Source of the DNA: Clostridia bacterium
Lineage (GTDB): Bacteria > Bacillota > Clostridia > Oscillospirales > Acutalibacteraceae
Assembly: GCA_024692685.1 (NCBI GenBank)
Contig: JAILMJ010000026.1
Location: 1 to 45,992, forward strand
Direction: 5' to 3'
DNA length: 45,992 nucleotides
Part shown: piece by piece, positions 18,091 through 30,800 of the stretch
How positions within the stretch are numbered: position 1 is the first letter of the stretch
Layout of the letters: every line of letters begins with the position of its first letter
Notes under the pieces: generated by a model
What the model saw: the letters and a program-made list of their open reading frames with translations, nothing else
Databases searched by the model: none
What the model was told of the DNA's origin: nothing
Translations under genes and position numbers: made by a program

Positions 18091-20187
18091 CTATCTGACG
18101 CTGAAAAGAATCTCGCCGTAAGACGGATAAGGCCAGTATTCCTTGGCGGTTACTGCCTCGGCACTGTCGACAAGAGCCCTGAGCGCAGCCATATCCGGCA
18201 GAATTGTATCGCGGATAGCATATCCGAGTTTCTCCGTGTCGGTTATGTCGGCTATTTTTGACATATTCGCTTCCATCTTTTCAGTTTCCCATTCAATTCC
18301 GTCATTTGTCTTAGAAAGGTTTTTGAGCAAGGAGGTTTCATATTCCGCCGACGCCTCCGGACAGGCCTCTTTTCTAATTCTGATGCTCTCTGCAAGTTTA
18401 AGAGTATATGAGCTTATGGCAGGCATAATCTCCGTTTTAACCATGCTGAGCATCGTATTGGCCTCAATTATTACCGCTTTGTTATAGTTATCAAGCATAA
18501 TCTCGCATCTTGACCTGAGTTCCTCATCTGAAAATACGCCCTGGCTTTTCAACATAACAGCGTTTTTTTCATCAAGCAGATGCGGCATACAGTCGGGAGT
18601 CGTACGATAATTAAGCAGTTTCCTTTTCTGCGTTGCCTCTTTTATCCACTTATCGTCATAGCCATTGCCGTTAAAGATGATGCGCTTGTGGTCCTTGATT
18701 GTGTTTTGAATCATCTTATGAAGTGCATCCTCAAAGTCGCTCGCTTTTTCAAGCCGGTCAGCGTATATTTTCAGGCTCTCGGCAACGGCGCTGTTGAGCA
18801 TAATATTTGCACAGGCAATGCTGTTTGAGGATCCGAGCATACGAAATTCAAATTTGTTGCCGGTAAAAGCAAAAGGTGAAGTCCTGTTTCTGTCTGTTGT
18901 ATCACGGTTGAATTTCGGCAGAACATCAACGCCGAGTTTCATCTGTTTTTTCTTTGCTCCGTGATACGGAACATCTTTTTCTATCGCATCGAGCACCGCT
19001 GTCAGTTCATCGCCTAAGAATATTGAAATAACTGCCGGAGGAGCTTCGTTTGCCCCGAGTCTGTGGTCGTTGCCCGCTGTGGCAACAGATATACGGAGCA
19101 AATCCTGATAATCGTCAACCGCTTTGATAACCGCGCAAAGGAAAAGAAGGAACTGAGCATTTTCATAAGGAGTATCTCCGGGAGAAAGTAGGTTTACTCC
19201 CGTGTCTGTGGATATTGACCAGTTGTTATGCTTGCCGCTTCCGTTTACTCCGTCAAACGGCTTTTCATGAAGAAGGCAAACCAAACCGTGTTTTGCAGCA
19301 ACCTTCTGCATTATTTCCATTGTAAGCTGATTATGGTCGGTTGCTATATTGGTAGTGGTGTAAACAGGGGCCAGCTCATGCTGAGCGGGGGCCACTTCAT
19401 TGTGCTCCGTTTTGGCGAGAATTCCGAGTTTCCAGAGTTCCTCATTAAGCTCCTCCATAAATGCGGCAACACCCGGTTTTATGACTCCGAAATAATGGTC
19501 ATCCATCTCCTGCCCCTTAGGCGGCTTCGCTCCGAAAAGGGTTCTGCCGGTGTATCTCAAATCCGGACGTCTGTCATACATTTCCTTTGTAATAAGGAAG
19601 TATTCCTGCTCAGGGCCTACGGAGGTGCTGACATGCTTAACTTCCGTGTTTCCGAAAAGACGGAGTATTCTCAGCGCCTGCTTGTTTATTGCTTCCATTG
19701 AGCGCAGAAGCGGAGTTTTCTTATCAAGGGCGTGACCGCCGTATGAACAGAACGCCGTCGGTATGCAAAGGGTTTTATTCTTAATAAATGCGTAGGAAGT
19801 GGGATCCCAAGCCGTATATCCCCTCGCCTCAAATGTTGCCCTCAGTCCGCCGCTCGGGAAGGATGAGGCATCGGGCTCACCTTTGACAAGCTCCTTGCCG
19901 GAAAATTCCATAATCACTCCTCCGTCGGGAGCGGGAGTAATAAAACTGTCGTGCTTTTCGGCTGTAACGCCGGTCAGAGGCTGAAACCAATGAGTAAAAT
20001 GAGTTGCTCCCTTTTCCGTTGCCCAGTCTTTCATCGCATCGGCAACAGCATTGGCCACTCCTATATCAAGCTCTGAGCCCTCGTCAATTGTCTTCTTAAC
20101 CGACCGATAAACTTTTGCCGGCAGCATAGCTTTCATAACTCTGTCATCGAATACCATCGATCCGAAATATTCCGGGACTGATTTCAT
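18091..20187 (-). CDS. glnN: Glutamine synthetase type III
   Basis: This 698-residue protein is a GSIII enzyme (ATP + glutamate + NH4+ to glutamine), far longer than GSI (~440) and the standard ~700 for GSIII. Family landmarks include [23 protein letters not shown] (~95-120), [11 protein letters not shown] (~190), [12 protein letters not shown] (~315) and [11 protein letters not shown] (~425). I chose the ATG at 20187 (GGAGG 8 nt upstream) rather than an extension into the leader. An attenuator-like hairpin pair lies just upstream (20203-20256), so its level can be set apart from gdhA, which ends 100 bp before it. A second, type I glutamine synthetase is encoded at 28963-30174. Confidence 0.95.
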
Positions 20188-20202
20188 CTTTTTTACCTCC
20201 TT

Positions 20203-20256
20203 AAAAAGGGCGAAGGCAAAGACATTCTGATAATAATCAAAGACGTCTTTGCCTTC
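20203..20256 (-). promoter_or_regulatory. Attenuator with ANTAR-type hexaloop hairpin upstream of the GSIII gene
   Basis: On the minus strand GAAGGC-AAAGAC-GUCUUU (20256 to 20239) folds into a 6-bp hairpin with six-base loop AAAGAC (A at 1, G at 4). The same 5' strand and loop can instead pair with GUCUUUGCCUUC (20223 to 20212) in a perfect 12-bp stem followed by GCCCUUUUU, a terminator. The two folds exclude one another. No separate promoter is visible between gdhA and this element, so it probably gates read-through from gdhA. Confidence 0.7.
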
Positions 20257-20266
20257 TGTACTTATG

Positions 20267-20287
20267 AACCGTGTGGTTGGTACGGTT
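20267..20287 (-). other. Small hairpin directly after the gdhA stop
   Basis: A 6-bp inverted repeat AACCGT / ACGGTT with a 9-nt loop directly abuts the gdhA stop codon. No T tract follows, so it is not a convincing terminator; it may protect the gdhA 3' end or shape the attenuator that follows it. Confidence 0.4.
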
Positions 20288-21697
<1,410 letters not shown>

Positions 21698-21704
21698 TGT
21701 GCTG

Positions 21705-21733
21705 ATTATACGCCCGGTTTTTCATTTTGTCAA
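21705..21733 (-). promoter_or_regulatory. Consensus sigma-A promoter of gdhA
   Basis: Minus strand: TTGACA (21733-21728), 17-bp spacer, TATAAT (21710-21705); all twelve consensus bases match. The predicted transcript start is about 21698. Confidence 0.88.
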
Positions 21734-21739
21734 GAAGAA

Positions 21740-21767
21740 ATGCAATATTTTCTTTTGATTCTTGCAA
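21740..21767. promoter_or_regulatory. Proximal operator-like repeat at gdhA
   Basis: ATGCA-N18-TGCAA (right half TTCTTGCAA at 21759-21767) starts exactly 6 bp upstream of the -35 box. The left half is degenerate. The amt promoter carries the same kind of site at the same offset. Confidence 0.6.
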
Positions 21768-21801
21768 AGTTGTTGAAAATTCCCGATTATTTCACGATAA
21801 A

Positions 21802-21829
21802 TTGCAGGAAATATATCTAATTCCTGCAA
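21802..21829. promoter_or_regulatory. Distal operator-like palindrome upstream of gdhA
   Basis: A perfect 9-bp inverted repeat TTGCAGGAA-N10-TTCCTGCAA lies 34 bp beyond the proximal site, about 118 bp upstream of the predicted gdhA start. Both half-sites are identical to those in the glutamate synthase promoter at 23833-23865, 2 kb away. It could also act as a weak hairpin after amt, but the shared half-sites argue for a protein-binding site. Confidence 0.65.
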
Positions 21830-21835
21830 AAATTA

Positions 21836-21855
21836 CAGCAGTTTGCCCTCTGCTG
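21836..21855 (-). terminator. Likely terminator of amt
   Basis: CAGCAG-N8-CTGCTG hairpin 4 bp past the amt stop, followed on the minus strand by TAATTTTTG. The stem is short (6 bp), so efficiency is uncertain. Confidence 0.5.
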
Positions 21856-21859
21856 ATAG

Positions 21860-23587
21860 TTATTCAACATCCTGAAGGGCATCATACCCCTCTTCGCCCG
21901 TGCGGATTTTAACTACATTCTCAACATCATAAACAAATATCTTTCCGTCTCCTATATGGCCGGTGTAAAGCACCTTTTTTGCCGTTTCTATAACATCGCG
22001 CACAGGTACCTTACTAACTACTATATCTACCTGAACTTTCGGCAGCAAATTGGTTTCAACCGCAACACCGCGATAGTACTCCGGCTTTCCCATCTGCTGA
22101 CCGTATCCCATAACATGCGAGACGGTCATGCCCGTTATCCCGAGTTTGCCCATGGCTTCTTTCAGGGCGTAAAGTTTCTCTTCCTTAAATACAATTTCAA
22201 TCTTTGTGAATTTTGGTAAGCCGTCATCAAATGAGGGAACACGTTTTACCGGAATTGCCTCTGCTGCGGGAATCTGACCTGTAACGGCAACAATACTTTC
22301 AGGTGCACCGAAATCGGAATACTTATCAACCGACAGGACAAAATCAGCGTATGCGCTTGGCAGACCATGCTCGGTTGCGTCAAGACCTCTGATTTCCTCT
22401 TCACGGGGAACACGTAAACCGCAAGCTTTCTTTATTAACTTAAATACAACTGTCATCATAACAGCCGCATAAACCGCAACGCTGACGAAACCGAGAAGTT
22501 GGATAAGCAACTGACGGACTTCTCCGGTGTAGAAGAAACCTCTCAGACCGGCTGGAGCATCGGGATTTGCAAACAGTCCGACTGCAACTGTTCCCCATAC
22601 ACCGTTTGCCATATGAACTCCTACTGCGCCGACAGGATCGTCAATATGTAACCTAATGTCAAGAAACTCAACAACAACCACTACAATAATACCCGATACA
22701 AAACCGACAGCCGCGGCGCCTATCCAGTCCAGAGCGTCCGTTCCTGCCGTAACGGCAACCAGACCGGCAAGTGATGCGTTAAGGCACATGGAAACATCCG
22801 GTTTGCCGTTATGTATCCAGGTAAATATCATTGTTGTCACAGTTGCGACTGAGGGGGCAACTGTTGTGGTAAGAAAAATGGAAGCAAGTTCTGAAGTTGT
22901 CGTAGCCGCTGCGCCGTTGAAACCGTACCAGCCAAGCCAAAGAATAAAAACTCCGAGTGCACCCAGAGGTATGGAATGACCGGGGAAAGCGTTAACCTTT
23001 GTAACCTTGCCGTTTGCATCGCGGGTGTATTTACCGATTCTGGGGCCGAGAATCGTTGCGCCGACAAGAGCTGCAATTCCGCCGACCATATGAATTGCGC
23101 AGGAACCTGCATAATCGTGAAAACCGAGTTTTGAAAGCCAGCCGCCTCCCCAGATCCAGTGTGCCTCAATTGGATAGACAAATAAAGAAATAACTGCCGA
23201 ATAAATGCAGTAAGCCGAAAACTTTGTTCTCTCCGCCATTGCTCCTGAAACTATTGTTGCGGTCGTAGCACAGAAAACAAGGTTAAAAACAAATGTTGAC
23301 GCGCCTGTGAATCCTCCGCCTGCCGGATTGGCAATGAAATCTTTGAAATCGGCAAACATATTCATATTCGGAATTCCGATAAGACCGAACAAGGTATCTT
23401 CACCCATCATAAGACCGTAACCCAAAACTGAAAAGACTATTGTTCCTATACAGAAATCCATCAGGTTTTTCATTATAATATTACCGGCATTCTTCGCACG
23501 GGTAAATCCCGTTTCAACCATTGCAAATCCTGCCTGCATCCAGAAAACCAATGCAGCTCCTATAAGATACCAAAACTCTACTGACAT
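21860..23587 (-). CDS. amt: Ammonium transporter fused to a PII signalling domain
   Basis: This 575-residue membrane protein has an Amt/Mep/Rh transporter domain (~1-390, about eleven hydrophobic segments) with the twin pore histidines H166 (CAIHMVGG) and H325 (VGVHMANG), a ~65-residue linker, and a complete PII (GlnB/GlnK-like) domain (~460-575). The PII part has a T-loop with YYRG (Y505 aligning with the uridylylated Tyr51 of E. coli GlnB), the phosphate loop GDGKIFV (~547) and the C-terminal RIRTGEE-type stretch (IRTGEEG). In separate-gene systems GlnK plugs Amt when nitrogen is ample; here sensor and channel are one chain. I chose the ATG at 23587 (AAGGAG 9 nt upstream) over one 9 bp earlier that abuts the ribosome binding site. 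Its leader has two tandem attenuators and its promoter faces the divergent glutamate synthase operon. Confidence 0.95.
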   Translation of the reverse strand: MSVEFWYLIGAALVFWMQAGFAMVETGFTRAKNAGNIIMKNLMDFCIGTIVFSVLGYGLMMGEDTLFGLIGIPNMNMFADFKDFIANPAGGGFTGASTFVFNLVFCATTATIVSGAMAERTKFSAYCIYSAVISLFVYPIEAHWIWGGGWLSKLGFHDYAGSCAIHMVGGIAALVGATILGPRIGKYTRDANGKVTKVNAFPGHSIPLGALGVFILWLGWYGFNGAAATTTSELASIFLTTTVAPSVATVTTMIFTWIHNGKPDVSMCLNASLAGLVAVTAGTDALDWIGAAAVGFVSGIIVVVVVEFLDIRLHIDDPVGAVGVHMANGVWGTVAVGLFANPDAPAGLRGFFYTGEVRQLLIQLLGFVSVAVYAAVMMTVVFKLIKKACGLRVPREEEIRGLDATEHGLPSAYADFVLSVDKYSDFGAPESIVAVTGQIPAAEAIPVKRVPSFDDGLPKFTKIEIVFKEEKLYALKEAMGKLGITGMTVSHVMGYGQQMGKPEYYRGVAVETNLLPKVQVDIVVSKVPVRDVIETAKKVLYTGHIGDGKIFVYDVENVVKIRTGEEGYDALQDVE

Positions 23588-23616
23588 AAAAACCATCTCC
23601 TTAAAAATGTTTGATA

Positions 23617-23661
23617 TAAAAAAGCAAGAGCGCCTGCCCGAATCGGAGACGCCCTTGCCTC
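23617..23661 (-). promoter_or_regulatory. amt leader, second ANTAR-type hairpin with terminator
   Basis: GAGGC-AAGGGC-GUCUC (23661 to 23646) is a 5-bp hairpin with hexaloop AAGGGC (A1, G4). Part of it (GCAAGGGCG) can pair with CGCUCUUGC (23632 to 23624), enclosing CCG-AUU-CGG, to give a 9-bp terminator stem ending in UUUUUU. This is the nearer of two switches before amt. Confidence 0.72.
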
Positions 23662-23676
23662 AATTGAAAAGATTGT

Positions 23677-23729
23677 ATAAAAACTGAAAGCGTCCCCGTC
23701 ATAAATACGACGGAGACGCCATTGCCTTT
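23677..23729 (-). promoter_or_regulatory. amt leader, first ANTAR-type hairpin with terminator-like stem
   Basis: Starting about 2 nt after the predicted transcript start, AGGC-AAUGGC-GUCU (23727 to 23714) gives a short 4-bp hairpin with hexaloop AAUGGC (A1, G4). Its 3' part overlaps GCGUCUCCGUC, which pairs with GACGGGGACGC (11 bp, one G-U) before UUUCAGUUUUUAU, a moderate terminator. Confidence 0.6.
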
Positions 23730-23737
23730 ATGATTGG

Positions 23738-23766
23738 ATTATACTACCGAAAATCCGGTTTGTCAA
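23738..23766 (-). promoter_or_regulatory. Consensus sigma-A promoter of amt
   Basis: Minus strand: TTGACA (23766-23761), 17-bp spacer, TATAAT (23743-23738). All twelve consensus bases match, as at gdhA. The predicted start is about 23731. Confidence 0.88.
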
Positions 23767-23772
23767 CAGATT

Positions 23773-23800
23773 TTGCATAAGCATTTTTAGTTTCTTGCAA
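23773..23800. promoter_or_regulatory. Proximal operator-like repeat at amt
   Basis: TTGCA-N18-TGCAA (right half TTCTTGCAA, identical to the gdhA proximal half-site) begins 6 bp upstream of the amt -35 box. The next, perfect copy lies 34 bp further on inside the divergent promoter. Confidence 0.62.
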
Positions 23801-23826
23801 AATTTTGCCGTTTTTCCATTTTTATG

Positions 23827-23855
23827 TTGACAATTTGCAGGAATAATGATATAAT
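23827..23855 (+). promoter_or_regulatory. Consensus sigma-A promoter of the glutamate synthase operon
   Basis: Plus strand: TTGACA (23827-23832), 17-bp spacer, TATAAT (23850-23855), fully consensus. The predicted start is about 23862. It is divergent from the amt promoter, with the two -35 boxes about 60 bp apart. Confidence 0.88.
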
Positions 23856-23865
23856 TCCTGCAAAT
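23833..23865. promoter_or_regulatory. Perfect 12-bp palindromic operator over the glutamate synthase promoter
   Basis: ATTTGCAGGAAT-N9-ATTCCTGCAAAT covers the whole spacer and -10 box of the plus-strand promoter, a position where a bound protein would block polymerase. At the same time it is the distal site for amt, at the same offset from the amt promoter as the distal site has at gdhA. Confidence 0.75.
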
Positions 23866-23922
23866 GAGCAAAGGCGTTCATTTCGCATCAGGCTTTAACG
23901 TGCGAAATGGGCGCCCTTTTTT
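23862..23922 (+). promoter_or_regulatory. Glutamate synthase operon leader: ANTAR-type hairpin overlapping a terminator
   Basis: The first bases of the transcript form AAAUGAGC-AAAGGC-GUUCAUUU (23862-23883), an 8-bp hairpin with hexaloop AAAGGC (A1, G4). Its loop and 3' strand are shared with a long terminator: CAUUUCGCA (23879-23887) pairs with UGCGAAAUG (23901-23909), and AAAGGCG with CGCCCUUU, ending in UUUUUU (23917-23922). The operon includes the ANTAR protein gene, so autoregulation is likely. Confidence 0.78.
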
Positions 23923-23941
23923 GTATGATGAGGTAGTATAA

Positions 23942-25039
23942 ATGGAGCTTGAAGGGAAGATAAGAATACCGTCCGGCTGTGCGATAGCCGCTGTTATATC
24001 GCGCGAGGGAAATCCCATCCCGGGGAATCTTATATCAGAGGCAATGCGGCCTATGCATGACCGCTCAAACGGACTGGGAGGCGGATTCGCAGGCTACGGC
24101 ATATACCCCGCCTATAAAGATTTCTACGCCTTACACATCTTTTTTGATTCGCGCTCAACACGAAAGGATTGCGAAGCATTCATAAAAGAACATTTTGAAA
24201 TAGTGAAAGCGGAAATTATTCCTACCGAAAAGAACCGGGCAATAACGGACGAGCCTATCATCTGGAGATATTTCGTTTCCCCTCTCAAGTCAACTCTTGC
24301 AGATCTTCAGCTTGATGAAAAGGAATTTGTTGTTCGTACGGTTGTCAAAATAAACTCTGAAATGAAAGGCGCCTATGTATTCTCAAGCGGAAAGAATATG
24401 GGAACTTTTAAAGCCGTAGGCTACCCGGAGGACATAGGTGAATACTACCGCCTGGGTGAATACAGAGGTTACTCCTGGACAGCGCACGGAAGATACCCGA
24501 CCAACACTCCCGGCTGGTGGGGCGGCGCGCATCCTTTTACTTTGCTGGATTACTCGGTTGTTCATAACGGCGAAATTTCATCATACGACGCGAACAGGCG
24601 TTTCATAGAGATGTTCGGATACAAATGCACCCTGCAAACCGATACGGAAGTTATCACATATATAATGGATTACCTTTTAAGAAGGCAGAGACTATCTCTT
24701 GAGGAGGCGGCAAACGTGGTTGCCGCGCCGTTTTGGAGCACAATAGAAAAAAACAGGAATATACCGGAAAGAGATAAACTGATCTACCTGAGAACAATGT
24801 TCTCCAGTCTTCTTATAACCGGACCTTTTTCAATAGTTCTGGGTTTTGAAGGCGGTCTTATGGCTCTAAACGACAGACTCAAACTCAGGTCTCTTGTAGT
24901 CGGAGAAAAAGATGACAGAGTATTTATGGCCAGCGAGGAGGCGGCCATAAGAACCATGGAGCCCAACGCCGAAAATATTTGGGCGCCCGCAGGCGGAGAG
25001 CCTGTCATAGTTACACTCGGGGAAGGTGTTGAAAATTGA
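23942..25039 (+). CDS. Glutamate synthase, separate class II glutaminase subunit
   Basis: This 365-residue protein corresponds to the N-terminal amidotransferase part of glutamate synthase, encoded here as its own gene as in archaeal-type (split) enzymes. The probable nucleophile is Cys13 in PSGCAIAAVIS, implying removal of 12 residues; glutaminase-fold markers AHGRYPTNTPGWWGG (~180) and VHNGEISS (~207) and TDTEVITYI (~233) follow. It would release ammonia from glutamine for the FMN subunit encoded next, whose TTG start overlaps its stop. GAGG lies 8 nt before the ATG. It opens the seven-gene operon behind a consensus promoter and leader. Confidence 0.88.
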   Translation: MELEGKIRIPSGCAIAAVISREGNPIPGNLISEAMRPMHDRSNGLGGGFAGYGIYPAYKDFYALHIFFDSRSTRKDCEAFIKEHFEIVKAEIIPTEKNRAITDEPIIWRYFVSPLKSTLADLQLDEKEFVVRTVVKINSEMKGAYVFSSGKNMGTFKAVGYPEDIGEYYRLGEYRGYSWTAHGRYPTNTPGWWGGAHPFTLLDYSVVHNGEISSYDANRRFIEMFGYKCTLQTDTEVITYIMDYLLRRQRLSLEEAANVVAAPFWSTIEKNRNIPERDKLIYLRTMFSSLLITGPFSIVLGFEGGLMALNDRLKLRSLVVGEKDDRVFMASEEAAIRTMEPNAENIWAPAGGEPVIVTLGEGVEN

Positions 25040-26541
25040 GTGTCGAATTTTTGTATCCGGAATTCGAAGTAATAAGAAACAGTGAAAGATGCATCGCCTG
25101 CCGCGTGTGTGAAAGGCAATGCGCAAATGAAGTGCATTTTTTTGATATCAAAGGCGGAATAATGAAGAGCGATGAATCAAAGTGCGTTAACTGCCAGAGA
25201 TGCGTTTCGCTCTGCCCGACAAGAGCGCTGAAAATCGTCAAATCCGATTGTATCCTCAGGGAAAACTGCAACTGGCAGAATGACACCATCAGAGAGGTCT
25301 ATAAACAGGCAAACAGCGGCGGAGTTCTGCTTTCATCAATGGGCAACCCGAAGCCTATGCCGGTTTATTGGGATAAAATGCTCATAAATGCCTCTCAGGT
25401 GACGAATCCTCCGATTGATCCCCTTCGTGAACCAATGGAAACAAAGGTATTTCTCGGCAAAAAGCCCGAAAGAATCGAGAGGGATAAAAGCGGAAACCTG
25501 ATAAATAACCTGCCTGCGCAGATTGAGCTTACTATGCCGGTTATGTTTTCGGCAATGAGCTACGGCTCAATCAGCTACAATGCGCATGCTTCACTTGCAA
25601 GGGCCGCTGAAGAGCTTGGGATTATTTATAATACCGGTGAAGGCGGACTTCACGAGGACTTTTATAAGTTCGGTAAGAATACAATAGTCCAGGTTGCCTC
25701 CGGCCGTTTCGGAGTATATGAAAACTATCTGAATGCCGGGGCTGCAATAGAGATAAAAATGGGCCAGGGCGCAAAGCCGGGTATAGGCGGACATCTGCCC
25801 GGCGAAAAAATAGTCGGAGATATATCACGTACCAGGATGATACCCGAAGGCTCTGACGCAATTTCGCCCGCTCCCCACCATGACATATATTCCATCGAAG
25901 ACCTTCGCCAGCTTGTGTTTTCACTCAAAGAGGCCACCCGCTATAAAAAACCAATTATAGTAAAAGTGGCCGCGGTTCATAACATTGCCGCCATAGCAAG
26001 CGGAATTGCAAGAAGCGGAGCCGATATAATCGCCATCGACGGTTTCAGAGGCGGCACCGGCGCGGCGCCTACACGTATACGGGACAATGTGGGTATACCG
26101 ATAGAACTTGCCCTTGCCTCGGTTGATAAAAGGCTGCGCGATGAGGGCATAAGGAACAATGTTTCACTCGTCGCCGGCGGCTCAATCAGAAGCGCCGCCG
26201 ATGTTGTCAAAGCGATAGCGCTCGGTGCAGACGCATGTTATATTGCTACTGCCGCACTGCTTGCGCTCGGATGTCATCTCTGCCGCACCTGCCAAAGCGG
26301 CAAATGCAACTGGGGAATAGCCACCCAGAAACCGGAGCTGATTAAAAGACTTAATCCGGATATCGGCAGCCGACGCCTTGTCAACCTTATGACGGCATGG
26401 AAACACGAAATAAAAGAAATAATGGGCGGTATGGGCATCAATTCCATTGAGGCTCTAAAAGGCAACCGTCTTATGCTCAGGGGCGTGGGACTAAACGAAA
26501 AAGAACTTGAAATCCTAGGCATATCCCACGCCGGCGAGTGA
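25036..26541 (+). CDS. Glutamate synthase central FMN/Fe-S subunit with N-terminal ferredoxin
   Basis: This 501-residue protein carries two N-terminal [4Fe-4S] motifs (C19, C22, C25, C29 and C50, C53, C56, C60), then the FMN-binding glutamate synthase barrel (MSYGSISYNAHASLA at ~172, PGIGGHLPGEKI ~250, IDGFRGGTGAAPT ~334), and a late Cys set C413-x2-C416-x2-C419 plus CNWG for the [3Fe-4S] centre. It reduces 2-iminoglutarate to glutamate. The domain order is that of archaeal-type GltB, with GXGXG domain and glutaminase as separate genes. The start is TTG (TTGA overlap with the previous stop, AAGGTG upstream), implying translational coupling. Confidence 0.92.
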   Translation: MSVEFLYPEFEVIRNSERCIACRVCERQCANEVHFFDIKGGIMKSDESKCVNCQRCVSLCPTRALKIVKSDCILRENCNWQNDTIREVYKQANSGGVLLSSMGNPKPMPVYWDKMLINASQVTNPPIDPLREPMETKVFLGKKPERIERDKSGNLINNLPAQIELTMPVMFSAMSYGSISYNAHASLARAAEELGIIYNTGEGGLHEDFYKFGKNTIVQVASGRFGVYENYLNAGAAIEIKMGQGAKPGIGGHLPGEKIVGDISRTRMIPEGSDAISPAPHHDIYSIEDLRQLVFSLKEATRYKKPIIVKVAAVHNIAAIASGIARSGADIIAIDGFRGGTGAAPTRIRDNVGIPIELALASVDKRLRDEGIRNNVSLVAGGSIRSAADVVKAIALGADACYIATAALLALGCHLCRTCQSGKCNWGIATQKPELIKRLNPDIGSRRLVNLMTAWKHEIKEIMGGMGINSIEALKGNRLMLRGVGLNEKELEILGISHAGE

Positions 26542-26564
26542 CAACCGATTTTGAGGGCAGACAT

Positions 26565-26993
26565 ATGAAAAGAATTTATGTGAATGAAGAATGGTGCCTC
26601 GGGTGCCACCTTTGCGAGTATAATTGCGCATTTGCAAATTCAGGGCTCAAGGATATGGTCGAAGCCCTGAAGGGAAAGCCGATTTTTCCCCGTATTCACA
26701 TTGAAGGAAACGAAAAAATATCCTACGCTGTTTCCTGCCGTCACTGTACAGACCCGATTTGTGTAAAAAGCTGCATTGCGGGAGCAATTTCGAATAAAGA
26801 CGGAGTGATAGTAGTTGATAAGAATAAGTGTGTCGGCTGTATGACATGCATACTTGTGTGTCCATACGGCGCTCTGGCCCTTAATGAAAACGGCGTTATG
26901 CAAAAATGCGAGCTCTGCACCCGTAATTCAGACGGAACACCGGCTTGTGTCAAGGGCTGCCCGAATAATGCAATAGTGTTTGAAGAGAGGTGA
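26565..26993 (+). CDS. Polyferredoxin-like 4Fe-4S electron-transfer subunit
   Basis: This 142-residue protein is built of [4Fe-4S] cysteine motifs: CLGCHLCEYNC at the N-terminus, CRHCTDPICVKSC (~58), CVGCMTCILVCP (~91) and CELCTRNSDGTPACVKGCP (~115). The pattern resembles HycB/DmsB-type multi-cluster electron carriers. It lies between the glutamate synthase FMN subunit and an FAD reductase, so it probably passes electrons between them. GAGGG lies ~7 nt before the ATG at 26565. Confidence 0.88.
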   Translation: MKRIYVNEEWCLGCHLCEYNCAFANSGLKDMVEALKGKPIFPRIHIEGNEKISYAVSCRHCTDPICVKSCIAGAISNKDGVIVVDKNKCVGCMTCILVCPYGALALNENGVMQKCELCTRNSDGTPACVKGCPNNAIVFEER

Positions 26994-26998
26994 AGACG

Positions 26999-28228
26999 GT
27001 GGATAAATTTGTGATTATCGGCAACGGTGTTGCCGCCGCCGGCTGCATCGAAGGGATAAGAAGCACTGAAAACGAAGGCCGGATAACCGTCATCTCGGAA
27101 GAAAAGCACCCTGTTTACTGCCGACCCCTTATCTCATATTATCTTGAGGAAAAAACCGACCGCGAAAAAATGAAATACCGCGCGGACGGATTTTACGAAA
27201 GCAACGGCTGTTCCGTCATATTCAAAAAAGCCGTGAGTATTGATAAAAGCAAAAGGCACGTAATACTTGAAGACGGAGAAAAAGTATCTTACACTTCGCT
27301 TTGCGTCGCAACCGGTTCTTCGCCTTTTGTTCCGCCTTTTGAAGGGCTTGATACTGTAAAGCACTGTTTCAGCTTTATGACCATTGATGACGCCGAAGCA
27401 CTGAAAAAGGAACTGTCAAAAGATAAGGACGTCCTCATCATAGGCGCGGGACTGATAGGCCTCAAATGCGCCGAGGGCATCGGCGACAGGGCCAAATCGG
27501 TTACTGTCTGCGATCTCGCCGGAAGAATCCTTTCGAGCATTCTCGATGATGACTGCGCTGCCATTATGCAAAAAAGACTTGAGGACAGCGGCATTGCTTT
27601 TATGCTCGGCGACAGCGCGGTGAAGTTTGACGGTAACAAAGCAATAATGAAAAGCGGTAAAACCGTAAAATTCGACATACTTGTTATTGCAGTCGGTGTC
27701 AGAGCAAACAGCGCGCTCATCAGGGATATAGGCGGAAATGTCAACCGCGGGATAACCGTTGACAAATACGGCAAAACATCGGTTAAAAACATATACGCCG
27801 CCGGTGACTGCACTGAATGCGTTGATTACTCTGACGGAATGAATAAGGTTATTGCTATAATGCCTAACGCATATATCGGAGGATTCACCGCCGGCGTGAA
27901 TATGGCAGGCGGCAAAACGGAATTCGCAAATCCGATACCTATGAATTCAATCGGATTTTTCGGTATACACGCTATGACGGCCGGCAGTTATGACGGCGAA
28001 TTGTTTGAAGACAGAAGCGAGAATACAATCAGGCGTTTCTTTACGAAGGACGGCAGGCTCATAGGCTTTATGCTGGTCGGATGTAACGAAAGAGCGGGCA
28101 TTTATACCTCGCTCATCAGGGAAAGAATTCCCCTCTCCACGCTGAATTTTGATATGCTGAGAAAGACGGCTGATTTCACATCGTTTTCCGCTGAAAGCCG
28201 TAAGCATGTTTTCGGGGGTGAAATCTGA
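26999..28228 (+). CDS. FAD/NAD(P)-dependent oxidoreductase (reductase of split glutamate synthase)
   Basis: This 409-residue protein has two dinucleotide folds: FAD motif FVIIGNGVAAAGC at the N-terminus, NAD(P) motif LIIGAGLIGLKCAEG (~145) and the FAD-closing YAAGDCTE (~265). It belongs to the rubredoxin reductase/NirB-like pyridine nucleotide oxidoreductases, not to the GltD family that normally serves glutamate synthase. By position it should feed electrons via the polyferredoxin to the FMN subunit. The start is GTG at 26999 (GAGAGG 8 nt upstream); a GTG at 26990, overlapping the previous stop, is the alternative but would sit on the ribosome binding site. Confidence 0.85.
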   Translation: MDKFVIIGNGVAAAGCIEGIRSTENEGRITVISEEKHPVYCRPLISYYLEEKTDREKMKYRADGFYESNGCSVIFKKAVSIDKSKRHVILEDGEKVSYTSLCVATGSSPFVPPFEGLDTVKHCFSFMTIDDAEALKKELSKDKDVLIIGAGLIGLKCAEGIGDRAKSVTVCDLAGRILSSILDDDCAAIMQKRLEDSGIAFMLGDSAVKFDGNKAIMKSGKTVKFDILVIAVGVRANSALIRDIGGNVNRGITVDKYGKTSVKNIYAAGDCTECVDYSDGMNKVIAIMPNAYIGGFTAGVNMAGGKTEFANPIPMNSIGFFGIHAMTAGSYDGELFEDRSENTIRRFFTKDGRLIGFMLVGCNERAGIYTSLIRERIPLSTLNFDMLRKTADFTSFSAESRKHVFGGEI

Positions 28229-28945
28229 ATGACAATTGATACCAAGGGAATCGGTTACCGTGAAATAAACAACCTTCTCCGTTGCGCAGACAGCGAAATC
28301 AAACTCACAAGCTGCATGGGACAGAGGTTCATAGGCGCAGGTATTTCGGACAAGAGCATCGAAATTGAAGGCATACCGGGCAACGCTCTCGGAGCATATC
28401 TCAACGGAGCAACAATAACCGTTAACGGAAATGTTCAGGACGCTGTAGGCGACACGATGAACAGCGGTGAAATAATCATTCGCGGAAATGCGGGAGACGC
28501 CGTCGGCTACGCTATGCGGGGAGGAAAAATATTTATTAAAGGAAATGCAGGCTACCGCGCCGGAATTCATATGAAAGCTTTTAAAGACAAAACCCCGGTT
28601 ATGGTCATAGGAGGAACGGCAGGCAGTTTCCTGGGCGAATATCAGGCAGGCGGCATTATCATTGTCCTCGGACTCGGCGCCGACGGCAGAAAAACAGGTT
28701 ATTTCCCCTGCACGGGTATGCACGGAGGGAAAATGTTCATCAAAGGGAACTGCTCCGGCATTGATTTCCCTGCCGGCGTAGATGTCAAAGAGGCTTCCTC
28801 TGCCGATATTGAAGAAATAAAGCCTTATTTACTTGAATATTGCAGTCGCTTCGAATATAATGAAGATGAACTGTTGACCGCAAGTTATTCTCTCATAACT
28901 CCGGACAGCAAGAATCCATACAAACAGATGTACGTAGCCAATTAA
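28229..28945 (+). CDS. Glutamate synthase GXGXG-domain subunit
   Basis: This 238-residue protein is the right-handed beta-helix 'GXGXG' (GltB C-terminal / FwdC-like) domain as a separate gene. The repeating pattern is plain: NALGAYLNGATITVNGN, DAVGDTMNSGEIIIRGN, DAVGYAMRGGKIFIKGN and so on (~50-115), ending in GMHGGKMFIKGNC (~163). In glutamate synthase this domain scaffolds the ammonia tunnel. The ATG directly follows the previous stop with GGGGGTG upstream. Confidence 0.9.
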   Translation: MTIDTKGIGYREINNLLRCADSEIKLTSCMGQRFIGAGISDKSIEIEGIPGNALGAYLNGATITVNGNVQDAVGDTMNSGEIIIRGNAGDAVGYAMRGGKIFIKGNAGYRAGIHMKAFKDKTPVMVIGGTAGSFLGEYQAGGIIIVLGLGADGRKTGYFPCTGMHGGKMFIKGNCSGIDFPAGVDVKEASSADIEEIKPYLLEYCSRFEYNEDELLTASYSLITPDSKNPYKQMYVAN

Positions 28946-28962: not shown

Positions 28963-30174
28963 ATGAAATATTCAATTGATGAAGTACTGCAGTATATTAA
29001 AGAAGAGGATGTCAAATTCATCCGCCTTGCCTTCTGCGATGTCTTCGGCAGGCAAAAAAACATTTCAATTATGCCCGGTGAATTAGAGCGTGCATTCAAT
29101 CAGGGTATCGCTTTTGATGCATCGGCGATTGCGGGATTCAGGGATGAATCGTTTTCCGATTTGTTCTTAATCCCCGATGCTGATACTCTTTCGTTTCTTC
29201 CCTGGAGACCCGAGCACGGCAAGGTTGTGCGTATGTTTACAACCATAAATAATCCCGACGGCTCTGTTTTTTGCGGGGATACGAGAAGTTTGCTTAAAAA
29301 AGCAGTTGATGACGCAGAAAAAGCGGGTTATTCTTTCAACTTCGGCACTGAGCAGGAGTTTTATCTTTTCAACCTTGACGAAAACGGCAATCCGACCAAT
29401 ATTCCCTATGACAACGCAGGCTATATGGACATAGCTCCGGCAGACAAGGGCGAGAATATACGCCGTGAAATCTGCCTGACCCTTGAACAGATGGGAATAT
29501 TCCCGGAAAGCTCCCACCACGAACAGGGCCCCGGTCAGAATGAAATAGATTTCCGCTATTCCGACCCGCTTACTACTGCCGATAACTCGCTCACCTTCCG
29601 TACGGTTGTGAGAACTGTTGCCGGAAGAAACGGTATACATGTTGATTTCAGCCCGAAGCCACTTGAAAATGAGGCCGGCAACGGGTGCCACATAAACATA
29701 TCCATCAAGCCCGATGTCGGGTCCGTCAATCTTTGCTATATGATAGCCGGCGTGCTGGACAAGATTGACGAGATGACTGCGGTGCTTAATCCCACCGAAG
29801 CATCATATAACCGTTTCGGTCACAATAAAGCGCCAAGTTACATCTCCTGGTCCGCTGAGAATCGCTCTCAACTTGTGAGAATACCCGCCGCCGTTGGTGA
29901 ATACCGCAGAGCAGAGCTGCGCTCACCTGACCCTACGGTAAACCCCTATCTTGCTTTCACCCTGCTTATTTATGCAGGCCTTTACGGCATTGAAAAAAAG
30001 CTGGACCTGCCGGAAGCCGCCAATATAAATCTTTTCCGTGTAAACGAGGATATTACGTCAAAATACAAACACCTGCCCACTTCTCTTGAAGCGGCACAGA
30101 AAATAATGAAAAACAGCGATTTTGTAAAATCCTGTCTGCCAAAACAGATTTTTGATATTTATTGCGGCGGATAA
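28963..30174 (+). CDS. glnA: Glutamine synthetase, short type I
   Basis: This 403-residue protein is a GSI-family enzyme, about 40 residues shorter than the usual ~440. Active-site segments are intact: FGTEQEFYLF (~128), HHEQGPGQNEIDFRY (~186), the ATP signature KPLENEAGNGCHINIS (~231), NRSQLVRIP (~305) and RSPDPTVNPYLAF (~325). It lacks the adenylylation-loop extension of proteobacterial GlnA. It sits between the glutamate synthase genes and the ANTAR gene. Because a GSIII enzyme is encoded on the other strand, the two may serve different nitrogen conditions; use of another amine acceptor cannot be excluded. Confidence 0.9.
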   Translation: MKYSIDEVLQYIKEEDVKFIRLAFCDVFGRQKNISIMPGELERAFNQGIAFDASAIAGFRDESFSDLFLIPDADTLSFLPWRPEHGKVVRMFTTINNPDGSVFCGDTRSLLKKAVDDAEKAGYSFNFGTEQEFYLFNLDENGNPTNIPYDNAGYMDIAPADKGENIRREICLTLEQMGIFPESSHHEQGPGQNEIDFRYSDPLTTADNSLTFRTVVRTVAGRNGIHVDFSPKPLENEAGNGCHINISIKPDVGSVNLCYMIAGVLDKIDEMTAVLNPTEASYNRFGHNKAPSYISWSAENRSQLVRIPAAVGEYRRAELRSPDPTVNPYLAFTLLIYAGLYGIEKKLDLPEAANINLFRVNEDITSKYKHLPTSLEAAQKIMKNSDFVKSCLPKQIFDIYCGG

Positions 30175-30209
30175 ATCATCTGAAGAGTAAACCGAAAGGA
30201 GGGGAGCCA

Positions 30210-30800
30210 ATGAGCCTGAGAGAACATATATACAGTGTACTGCTCGTTTCTTCATCGCAGGTATTAATCAGCTCGCTGACTTCAATGCTCCCCGAATCAA
30301 GGTTCGACCCCGTAACAGTCGTTAACAGTGTCAATGAGGCAAAAAGAAGACTTTCCGAACGGCAGTATGACTTCGTTATTGTCAACACTCCTCTTCCGGA
30401 CGATTTCGGGACGGGATTTGCAATAGAAATCTGCAATTCATCAAGGGGAACAGTTGTTCTTCTCCTCGTAAGAGCGGAGCTTTACAATGAAGTATATGAA
30501 AAGGCAGCCGAATACGGAGTCTTTATACTTGAAAAGCCGATGTCAAAATTCGCCTTTACAACAGGTGTTAACTGGATGATCAGCGCAAGAGAACGAAACA
30601 GGAAGGCCGAAATCAAAAGCCTTTCCGTTGAGGAAAAAATGGAGGAAATCAGACTGGTCAACAGAGCAAAATGGATACTTATTAAAACAGAGGAGATGGA
30701 CGAGTCCGCCGCCCACAGATTTATTGAAAAGACGGCTATGGACAGATGCGTTTCAAAATCTGAGGTTGCAAAGGAAATAATCGACAAGGACCGTAAATAA
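30210..30800 (+). CDS. ANTAR-domain antiterminator with degenerate receiver domain
   Basis: This 196-residue regulator has a receiver-like domain (~5-125) and a C-terminal ANTAR RNA-binding domain (~142-192; NRAKWILIKTEEMDE-SAAHRFIEKTAMD). ANTAR proteins such as NasR, AmiR and EutV bind hairpins in nascent RNA and prevent termination. The phosphoacceptor position is Asn59 (FVIVNTPLP) instead of Asp, and the acidic pair is replaced by serines (S14-S16), while Lys109 in EKP is kept; so phosphorylation control is unlikely and a ligand or partner signal is inferred. AAAGGAGGGG stands 5 nt before the ATG. It is last in the glutamate synthase operon, and five matching RNA hairpins lie in this window, including one in its own leader. 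Confidence 0.9.
   Translation: MSLREHIYSVLLVSSSQVLISSLTSMLPESRFDPVTVVNSVNEAKRRLSERQYDFVIVNTPLPDDFGTGFAIEICNSSRGTVVLLLVRAELYNEVYEKAAEYGVFILEKPMSKFAFTTGVNWMISARERNRKAEIKSLSVEEKMEEIRLVNRAKWILIKTEEMDESAAHRFIEKTAMDRCVSKSEVAKEIIDKDRK

Follow-up and report, generated by a model that had tools for sequence, protein, structure and literature searches.

A nitrogen locus on contig JAILMJ010000026.1 of the Clostridia bacterium assembly GCA_024692685.1 (Acutalibacteraceae, Oscillospirales) raises the question of whether its ammonium transporter gene amt and its glutamate dehydrogenase gene gdhA are controlled through one shared DNA site, and what kind of protein would read that site. The stretch that we analysed, called the window here, covers positions 1 to 45,992 of the forward strand (45,992 nucleotides). 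A first-pass annotation of the window had described the same two-site arrangement upstream of both genes, and our analysis supports a shared, helically phased operator that is not a known nitrogen box. We consider that these sites probably belong to a predicted operator class of this order, read by one symmetric dimeric or tetrameric factor with a glutamate, glutamine and ammonium regulon; this estimate covers the operator and the regulon, not the sign of control. The position of the site, which either lies just upstream of the -35 hexamer or has its inner half occupying the -35 position, the favoured helical spacing of second sites, the conservation and the target genes are shown at the level of sequence.

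Paired sites at the gdhA, amt and gltB promoters

Both gdhA and amt lie on the minus strand, and both have sigma-70-type promoters. The gdhA core promoter occupies 21705-21733, with TTGACA at 21728-21733, a 17-bp spacer and TATAAT at 21705-21710, and the amt core promoter occupies 23738-23766, with TTGACA at 23761-23766, the same spacer and TATAAT at 23738-23743. Moving outward from the -35, both genes have 6 bp, then a near site (21740-21767, TTGCAAGAATCAAAAGAAAATATTGCAT in gdhA sense, and 23773-23800, TTGCAAGAAACTAAAAATGCTTATGCAA in amt sense), then 34 bp, and then a distal site that is the better copy (TTGCAGGAA-N10-TTCCTGCAA at 21802-21829 for gdhA and TTGCAGGAA-N11-TTCCTGCAA at 23835-23863 for amt). 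The left edges of the near and distal sites are 62 bp apart at both genes. In general form the site is WTGCAR-N16-YTGCAW, 28 bp long, with inverted half-sites 23 bp (about two helical turns) apart. The exact geometry common to the two genes and their perfect promoters, both of which had been claimed by the first-pass annotation, are thus confirmed, as every coordinate, hexamer and spacer agrees with the window sequence. In the same genome, which is 91% complete, exact copies of TTGCAGGAA-N9/12-TTCCTGCAA occur twice, and both are the window sites at gdhA and amt.

The distal site of amt had been regarded as an amt operator. The site itself is real, but it also overlies the promoter of the divergent gltB operon (plus strand, 23827-23855, with TTGACA at 23827-23832, a 17-bp spacer and TATAAT at 23850-23855), which it covers from just past the -35 to about +1, and this had been missed.

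A single match to the loose site pattern is not rare, since the window has 4 matches against 2.4 expected and at least 4 were found in 21 of 100 shuffles. This commonness could suggest that the repeats arose by chance as palindromes or serve to terminate transcription, as could the fact that some exact TTGCAGGAA...TTCCTGCAA stretches in other genomes are hairpins (e.g., L032; G, L and f numbers are our labels for genomes, loci and families) or lie 9 bp past an open reading frame (ORF) in Ruminococcus albus. However, when the intergenic regions were shuffled by dinucleotides, a non-overlapping pair of sites arose only once in 20,000 trials for gdhA (237 bp) and twice in 20,000 for amt (345 bp). 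The window sites also stand upstream of promoters in a fixed geometry, are kept in a relative (G012) and recur across families. A terminator or chance origin is thus highly improbable, and we rejected it on position, shuffles and conservation. In Ruminococcus, four loci (L117, L118, L144 and L145) have exact TTGCAGGAA palindromes about 10 bp past an ORF of 374-377 residues, which makes them terminator-like.

Conservation, phasing and recurrence of the site

The closest relative that we found, G012, belongs to the same genus, and its gdhA and an amt fragment are each 90% identical to those of the window. Upstream of its gdhA are TTGCAGGA...TTTCCTGCAT and TTGCAAGAA...TATGCAA, with a gap of 34 bp, centres 61.5 bp apart and 6 bp left before TTGACA. 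When this region is compared with that of the window, the four half-sites are identical at 8/9, 8/9, 9/9 and 6/9 positions and both promoter hexamers at 6/6, whereas the 17-bp promoter spacer agrees at only 4/17, the DNA between the two sites at 17/34, the DNA upstream of the distal site at 8/31 and the inner spacers of the two sites at 7/10 and 4/10. The sites and the promoter have therefore been conserved amid diverged DNA, which contradicts an origin by chance or as terminators.

Recurrence was examined in 394 genomes of the order. The paired pattern TGCA-N17/20-TGCA-N34/38-TGCA-N18-TGCA was found in 38 of them, against 2 for the same pattern written backwards. Of the 37 genomes besides the own one, 14 were selected by eye for annotation, and many of the hits in the remaining 23 are apparently coding or repetitive. 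Among these 14, the pair occurs at gdhA in five, all of one genus (L184-L188), at gltB/glnN, which are transcribed divergently, in three (L190-L192, two of them from a single genus), at glnA in one (L195) and, by Pfam, at citrate synthase or aconitase in two (L193, L201), at aminotransferases in two (L194, L200) and at an HMGL-family synthase in one (L199). The layout at L190-L192 repeats that of the window, the gltB promoter being covered by one site while the other lies 7-8 bp from the -35 of glnN.

A search for the near site together with a promoter, which required TTGAC and TATA and a gap to the -35 of 4-8 bp, gave 71 places in 54 of the 394 genomes and none in the backwards control. We fetched 40 of these places with flanks of up to 3 kb; at 23 the gene that follows is a homologue of a window gene (amt 8, gltB 7, glnN 5, gdhA 2, asnB 1), and at 3 it is citrate synthase. 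With the wider class included (16 of 243 genomes match), the retrieved loci contain 67 distinct near-site instances, 38 of which precede amt (10), gltB (9), glnN (8), citrate synthase (6), gdhA (4) or asnB (1). A length of 28 bp is seen in 31 of the 39 assigned instances (the 39th being a Fer hit) versus 10 of the 28 others, whose lengths of 27, 28 and 29 bp (11, 10 and 7 instances) are distributed as by chance. The check that the annotation had proposed, conservation in relatives and recurrence above background, hence comes out in favour of the sites, as G012 keeps both and other families have the site at the same pathway.

The site was also searched independently of any promoter in 24 genomes, giving 136 places against 28 in the backwards control. 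Among 20 of these that were fetched, chosen by eye, five loci are at aspartate aminotransferase genes (PF12897). At these five (L324, L326, L327, L332, L338) and at three gdhA loci (L184, L185, L187), that is, at 8 of 8 loci inspected, the inner half-site TTGCAA or TTGCAT lies exactly 17 bp before the -10 (TATAAT or TACACT), in the position of the -35. Two groups of matches were seen beside other genes. Near-site-like matches lie upstream of a ribosomal protein S21 gene, named by eye, in three genomes (L232, L241, L260), and TTGCAGGAA-N11-TTCCTGCAA stands in three related genomes (L088, L133, L138) beside a gene identified as an M28 peptidase in L034, which is the same locus as L088.

To study phasing, near sites were picked regardless of whether a second site was present. 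There are 15 full second sites, upstream of 13 of the 67 near sites. Their centre distances are 62-64 bp in four cases (two of them the window's own) and 71.5-74.5 bp in five, so that 9 of 15 lie at whole helical turns; the others are 93.5, 96, 36, 46, 49.5 and 189 bp, once each. Six and seven helical turns are favoured for second sites, on small and partly dependent numbers. The suggestion that a regulator could use one face of the DNA fits this preference, and the 62-bp edge distance, although exact at gdhA and amt, is not universal, since 71.5-74.5 bp also occurs. The near site lies 6-7 bp from the -35 in 51 of 67 instances, within the 4-8 bp searched.

Several observations weigh against a nitrogen operator class and have to be set beside these results. 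Only a small number of second sites is available, and some of them are orthologues of one another, four being at citrate synthase promoters of one family. The 6-7 bp gap is about as frequent in assigned (30/39) as in unassigned (21/28) instances and therefore does not discriminate targets, and 28 of the 67 near-site hits have no assigned target gene. Outside the order (231 genomes), all 10 hits were fetched, and only 2 are at window-gene homologues, namely amt in G514, where the leader is ANTAR-like, and, in G537, a homologue with 35% identity to gdhA. A search for the exact long palindrome in named genomes gave 93 stretches, and the 80 loci examined are a mix of operators, terminators and coding hits, with only one (L084, gdhA) just before a homologue of any of 12 window genes; at another, L109, a pair 62 bp apart precedes a promoter and leader with no matching gene after them. 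A looser pattern that does not require the -10 is matched by 25 of the 45 genomes in the own genus, and among six loci inspected besides the window's own only that of G012 is at gdhA. Nineteen glnN, glnA and amt upstream regions were fetched from relatives (a promoter was seen in 15, and three were re-readings of amt loci already examined), and a full site was found in only two (L377, L388), with a half-degenerate one, by eye, in L372. No site was found in the glnA or glnN upstream regions of nine other members of the own genus. Nineteen amt genes do not have glnN immediately before them, several of these sitting behind glnA or near contig ends, and only the window's own and that of L056 have a site within 350 bp. 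The distribution is patchy and far from universal, and many relatives lack the site.

Other shared stretches were seen at some of the promoters without a TTGCA site. In four glnA promoters of the same genus (L378, L380, L381, L386) there is, by eye, a common CATAT-TCCGA-like stretch before TTGACA. In three f8 genomes (L051, L052, L053) a CACCGAAAAGAAAAAA-like stretch (CACGAAAAGAAAAAA in L053) lies upstream of the amt -35, and it is possibly another operator.

Candidate regulators and the sign of control

The regulator may first be sought among the proteins whose operators are known. For these comparisons the consensus strings were matched exactly on both strands of the gdhA and amt intergenic regions. 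The GlnR/TnrA box of Bacilli, an upstream operator common to amt and the genes of glutamine and glutamate synthesis, resembles the present site in being shared by nitrogen genes, but its TGTNA-N7-TNACA has no exact match in either region, in agreement with the earlier statement that the two are distinct. The same holds for NtcA (GTA-N8-TAC), NtrC (TGCACY-N5-RGTGCA) and sigma-54 (TGGCAC-N5-TTGCW). The CodY box AATTTTCWGAAAATT has no exact match either; its best match at amt has 5 mismatches, but that at gdhA has 3, so that CodY is a possible regulator there. In archaea, NrpR controls nitrogen genes through an operator containing GGAA...TTCC; here GGAA-N6-TTCC is absent from both regions, and its NRD1 domain was found in 0 of 10 genomes, the own genome included, while the control matched in two archaea, so NrpR was rejected.

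The operators of BirA and NikR have half-sites about 22-23 bp apart (22 bp for NikR) and a total length of 28-31 bp, and PutA reads GTTGCA. The spacing and total length of BirA and NikR operators are thus like those of the present site, whereas the half-site sequence is different. The ribbon-helix-helix (RHH) domain RHH_1, searched at E 0.5, had no match in 3 of 22 site-bearing genomes (G463, G514 and the own genome, G000), although a divergent RHH protein could escape this search, and an NikR- or PutA-like regulator was rejected on its absence from the own genome. The BirA-like helix-turn-helix (HTH) domain HTH_11 matched in 28 of 28 genomes, with best E values of 7.7e-6 in G000 (in a 109-residue frame, the genome being incomplete) and 2.5e-4 in G119. 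Among the nine genus members searched, none reached an E value below 1e-10 except G024 (2.2e-11). This candidate is thus not favoured, a strong match being wanting in the own genome and in most of the genus members searched.

An Lrp/AsnC protein would be an attractive reader of the site, as a glutamine-sensing protein that wraps DNA in the manner of Sa-Lrp. Ss-LrpB of Sulfolobus binds cooperatively to TTGCA half-sites (PMC4046817), and Sa-Lrp, which is glutamine-responsive, has gltB, gdhA and glnA among the genes that it binds (PMC3584215). Strong Lrp/AsnC hits were found in 32 of 34 genomes, including 22 of 22 site-bearing ones, with one protein each except in G148 and G537 (two); that of the own genome is G000:C87 (L426). 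The two genomes without a strong hit, G013 and G015, also lack the site in the upstream regions read. Yet the half-sites of Ss-LrpB are 10 bp apart (PMC4046817), versus 23 bp here. The protein is also present in genus members whose upstream regions have no site (G018, G020, G030) and in four genomes without a near-site hit, G096 and G120 (f8) and G101 and G123 (f13). Sixteen of 20 site-bearing loci were compared, with G170 and G196 excluded as near copies and G148 and G537 as another type. In all 16 orthologues the HTH region has a net negative charge (-1 to -7) and a variable helix, and it is less conserved than the ligand domain (0.42 vs 0.55). This acidic HTH sets the candidate apart from Ss-LrpB and Sa-Lrp. 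The surroundings of the Lrp/AsnC genes have 2 site matches in 96 kb, the background rate, and no promoter-type site at the gene itself. Taken together, this protein is an improbable reader of the site. Members of the acidic-HTH subfamily are L421, L424, L426, L432-L434, L436, L437, L439, L440, L442-L444 and L446-L448.

Regulator-like neighbours common to at least two site loci are limited to a sigma-70-type factor encoded close to gltB in a pair of related genomes, and an RpiR-type and a PucR-type gene each lie beside one site only. The NRD1, RHH_1 and strong HTH_11 searches and the Lrp/AsnC survey thus gave no convincing regulator, which must be counted with the points against a dedicated operator class. 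Searches of the open literature returned no paper on this motif or on such an operator for clostridial ammonia assimilation, subscription journals being mostly outside this coverage.

How might such a protein act? A symmetric protein would bridge the two helical turns between the inverted WTGCAR half-sites and would then sit on a face of the DNA from which it may touch RNA polymerase, and another copy at a distance of 6 or 7 turns could allow cooperative binding on one face. A position at or next to the -35 would suit a repressor that blocks the polymerase as well as an activator. The protein would respond to nitrogen supply. From the near site it may activate amt, gdhA and glnN in nitrogen shortage, whereas from a site over the promoter, as at gltB in the window, it would exclude the polymerase and could only block. 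For the near site we slightly prefer activation, because full second sites are rare and the -35 is poor in the eight loci with a half-site in its place. The preference is only slight, since the favoured gap is about as common at unassigned hits as at assigned ones.

Alternatively, the same protein may be a repressor that, in nitrogen excess, blocks near-perfect promoters by bridging or wrapping the phased sites and occludes the covered promoter or the -35. The core promoters themselves point this way and speak against activation, as both hexamers are consensus at 42 of 67 near-site promoters (the search having already required TTGAC and TATA). So does the coverage of the gltB promoter, in the window and in L190-L192. 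In another lineage gltB has a site in the near position (7 of 40 loci), and one ABC transporter operon has its -35 inside the site, which would also fit repression. However, the core promoter is not covered by the near site, and only 13 of the 67 near sites are accompanied by a full second one. Repression is therefore a serious but, in our judgement, somewhat less than even possibility.

Leader hairpins, gene neighbourhood and the proposed regulon

Downstream of the DNA sites, the leaders of gdhA, amt and gltB contain possible ANTAR-like hairpins, so that the first-pass account of the locus was right about the sites but missed this second feature. In the gdhA leader (21645-21700, minus strand) a possible AAAGGC(AAAGGC)GTCTTT hairpin with an ANTAR-like loop overlaps a stronger hairpin with a T run (-21.5 kcal/mol, z -4.4). 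In the amt leader (23612-23735, minus strand) there are two hexaloops of the ANTAR-like kind, both of which overlap strong hairpins of their own (z -8.3 and -5.8), and in the gltB leader (23860-23925, plus strand) a possible GAGC(AAAGGC)GTTC, its hexaloop identified by eye, overlaps a strong hairpin with a T run (z -4.3). The loops have A at position 1 and G at position 4, and the short hexaloop hairpins overlap the 5' arms of the strong ones, which are followed by at least five U in all three leaders except in the first amt unit. A search restricted to stems of at least 4 bp, with weaker hairpins outside its range, gives one hexaloop hairpin in the gdhA leader and two in amt, each with its own hairpin unit. 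The minimum-energy folds give the strong hairpin, not the hexaloop hairpin. Among the 200-nt leaders of the 67 near-site promoters, a hexaloop with a stem of at least 4 occurs in 29, where shuffles of the same base composition give 9.7. In a crude scan for terminators 15 of the 67 were positive, but the gdhA leader hairpin was not flagged, and Rfam gave no family match in window positions 20000-25000.

ANTAR target RNAs are reported to have a hexaloop with A1 and G4, to form two tandem hairpins by a terminator and to occur on nitrogen genes (PMC3369931). The present leaders share the hexaloop beside a terminator and the nitrogen genes, but the tandem hairpins described there are single in the gdhA leader, and the leaders are a layer separate from the DNA sites. 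In view of this difference in the hairpins we call the leaders ANTAR-like. An ANTAR protein is encoded together with these targets, as the final gene of the gltB operon is a response regulator with a receiver and an ANTAR RNA-binding domain (30162-30800, plus strand). An ANTAR-like leader would be a second control on the same transcripts.

The surrounding genes were named by Pfam. On the minus strand, amt (21860-23596) encodes an ammonium transporter with a C-terminal P-II domain fused in one frame, and gdhA (20288-21622) is followed on its 3' side by glnN, a type III glutamine synthetase gene (18091-20331). On the plus strand, the gltB operon starts with a split glutamate synthase (23942-28945; amidotransferase, FMN domain, Fe-S protein, oxidoreductase and GXGXG domain) and continues with a second glutamine synthetase (28963-30174, Gln-synt_N and Gln-synt_C). 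Between 5396 and 21622 a minus-strand run holds gdhA, glnN and asnB and then GMP synthase, CTP synthase, a purF-like amidotransferase (this one named by eye), the two subunits of carbamoyl-phosphate synthase, an aminotransferase and diaminopimelate epimerase. This run of enzymes that use glutamine or glutamate might be under the common gdhA promoter.

Going beyond the operator class itself, we favour, with more reserve, the reading that an undescribed global nitrogen and carbon regulator is at work. It would join amt, the glutamine synthetases, gltB, gdhA, asparagine and aspartate synthesis, and citrate synthase and aconitase of the citrate-to-2-oxoglutarate branch into one regulon. Its marks would be a palindrome with half-sites two turns apart, repeats at whole turns, a half-site that can stand in the place of the -35 and a joint ANTAR-like leader. 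The site offers a bait for the search for the regulator, together with a list of promoters. If this reading is true, the supply of glutamate in these bacteria, from citrate to glutamine, would be under one transcriptional switch and an RNA switch.

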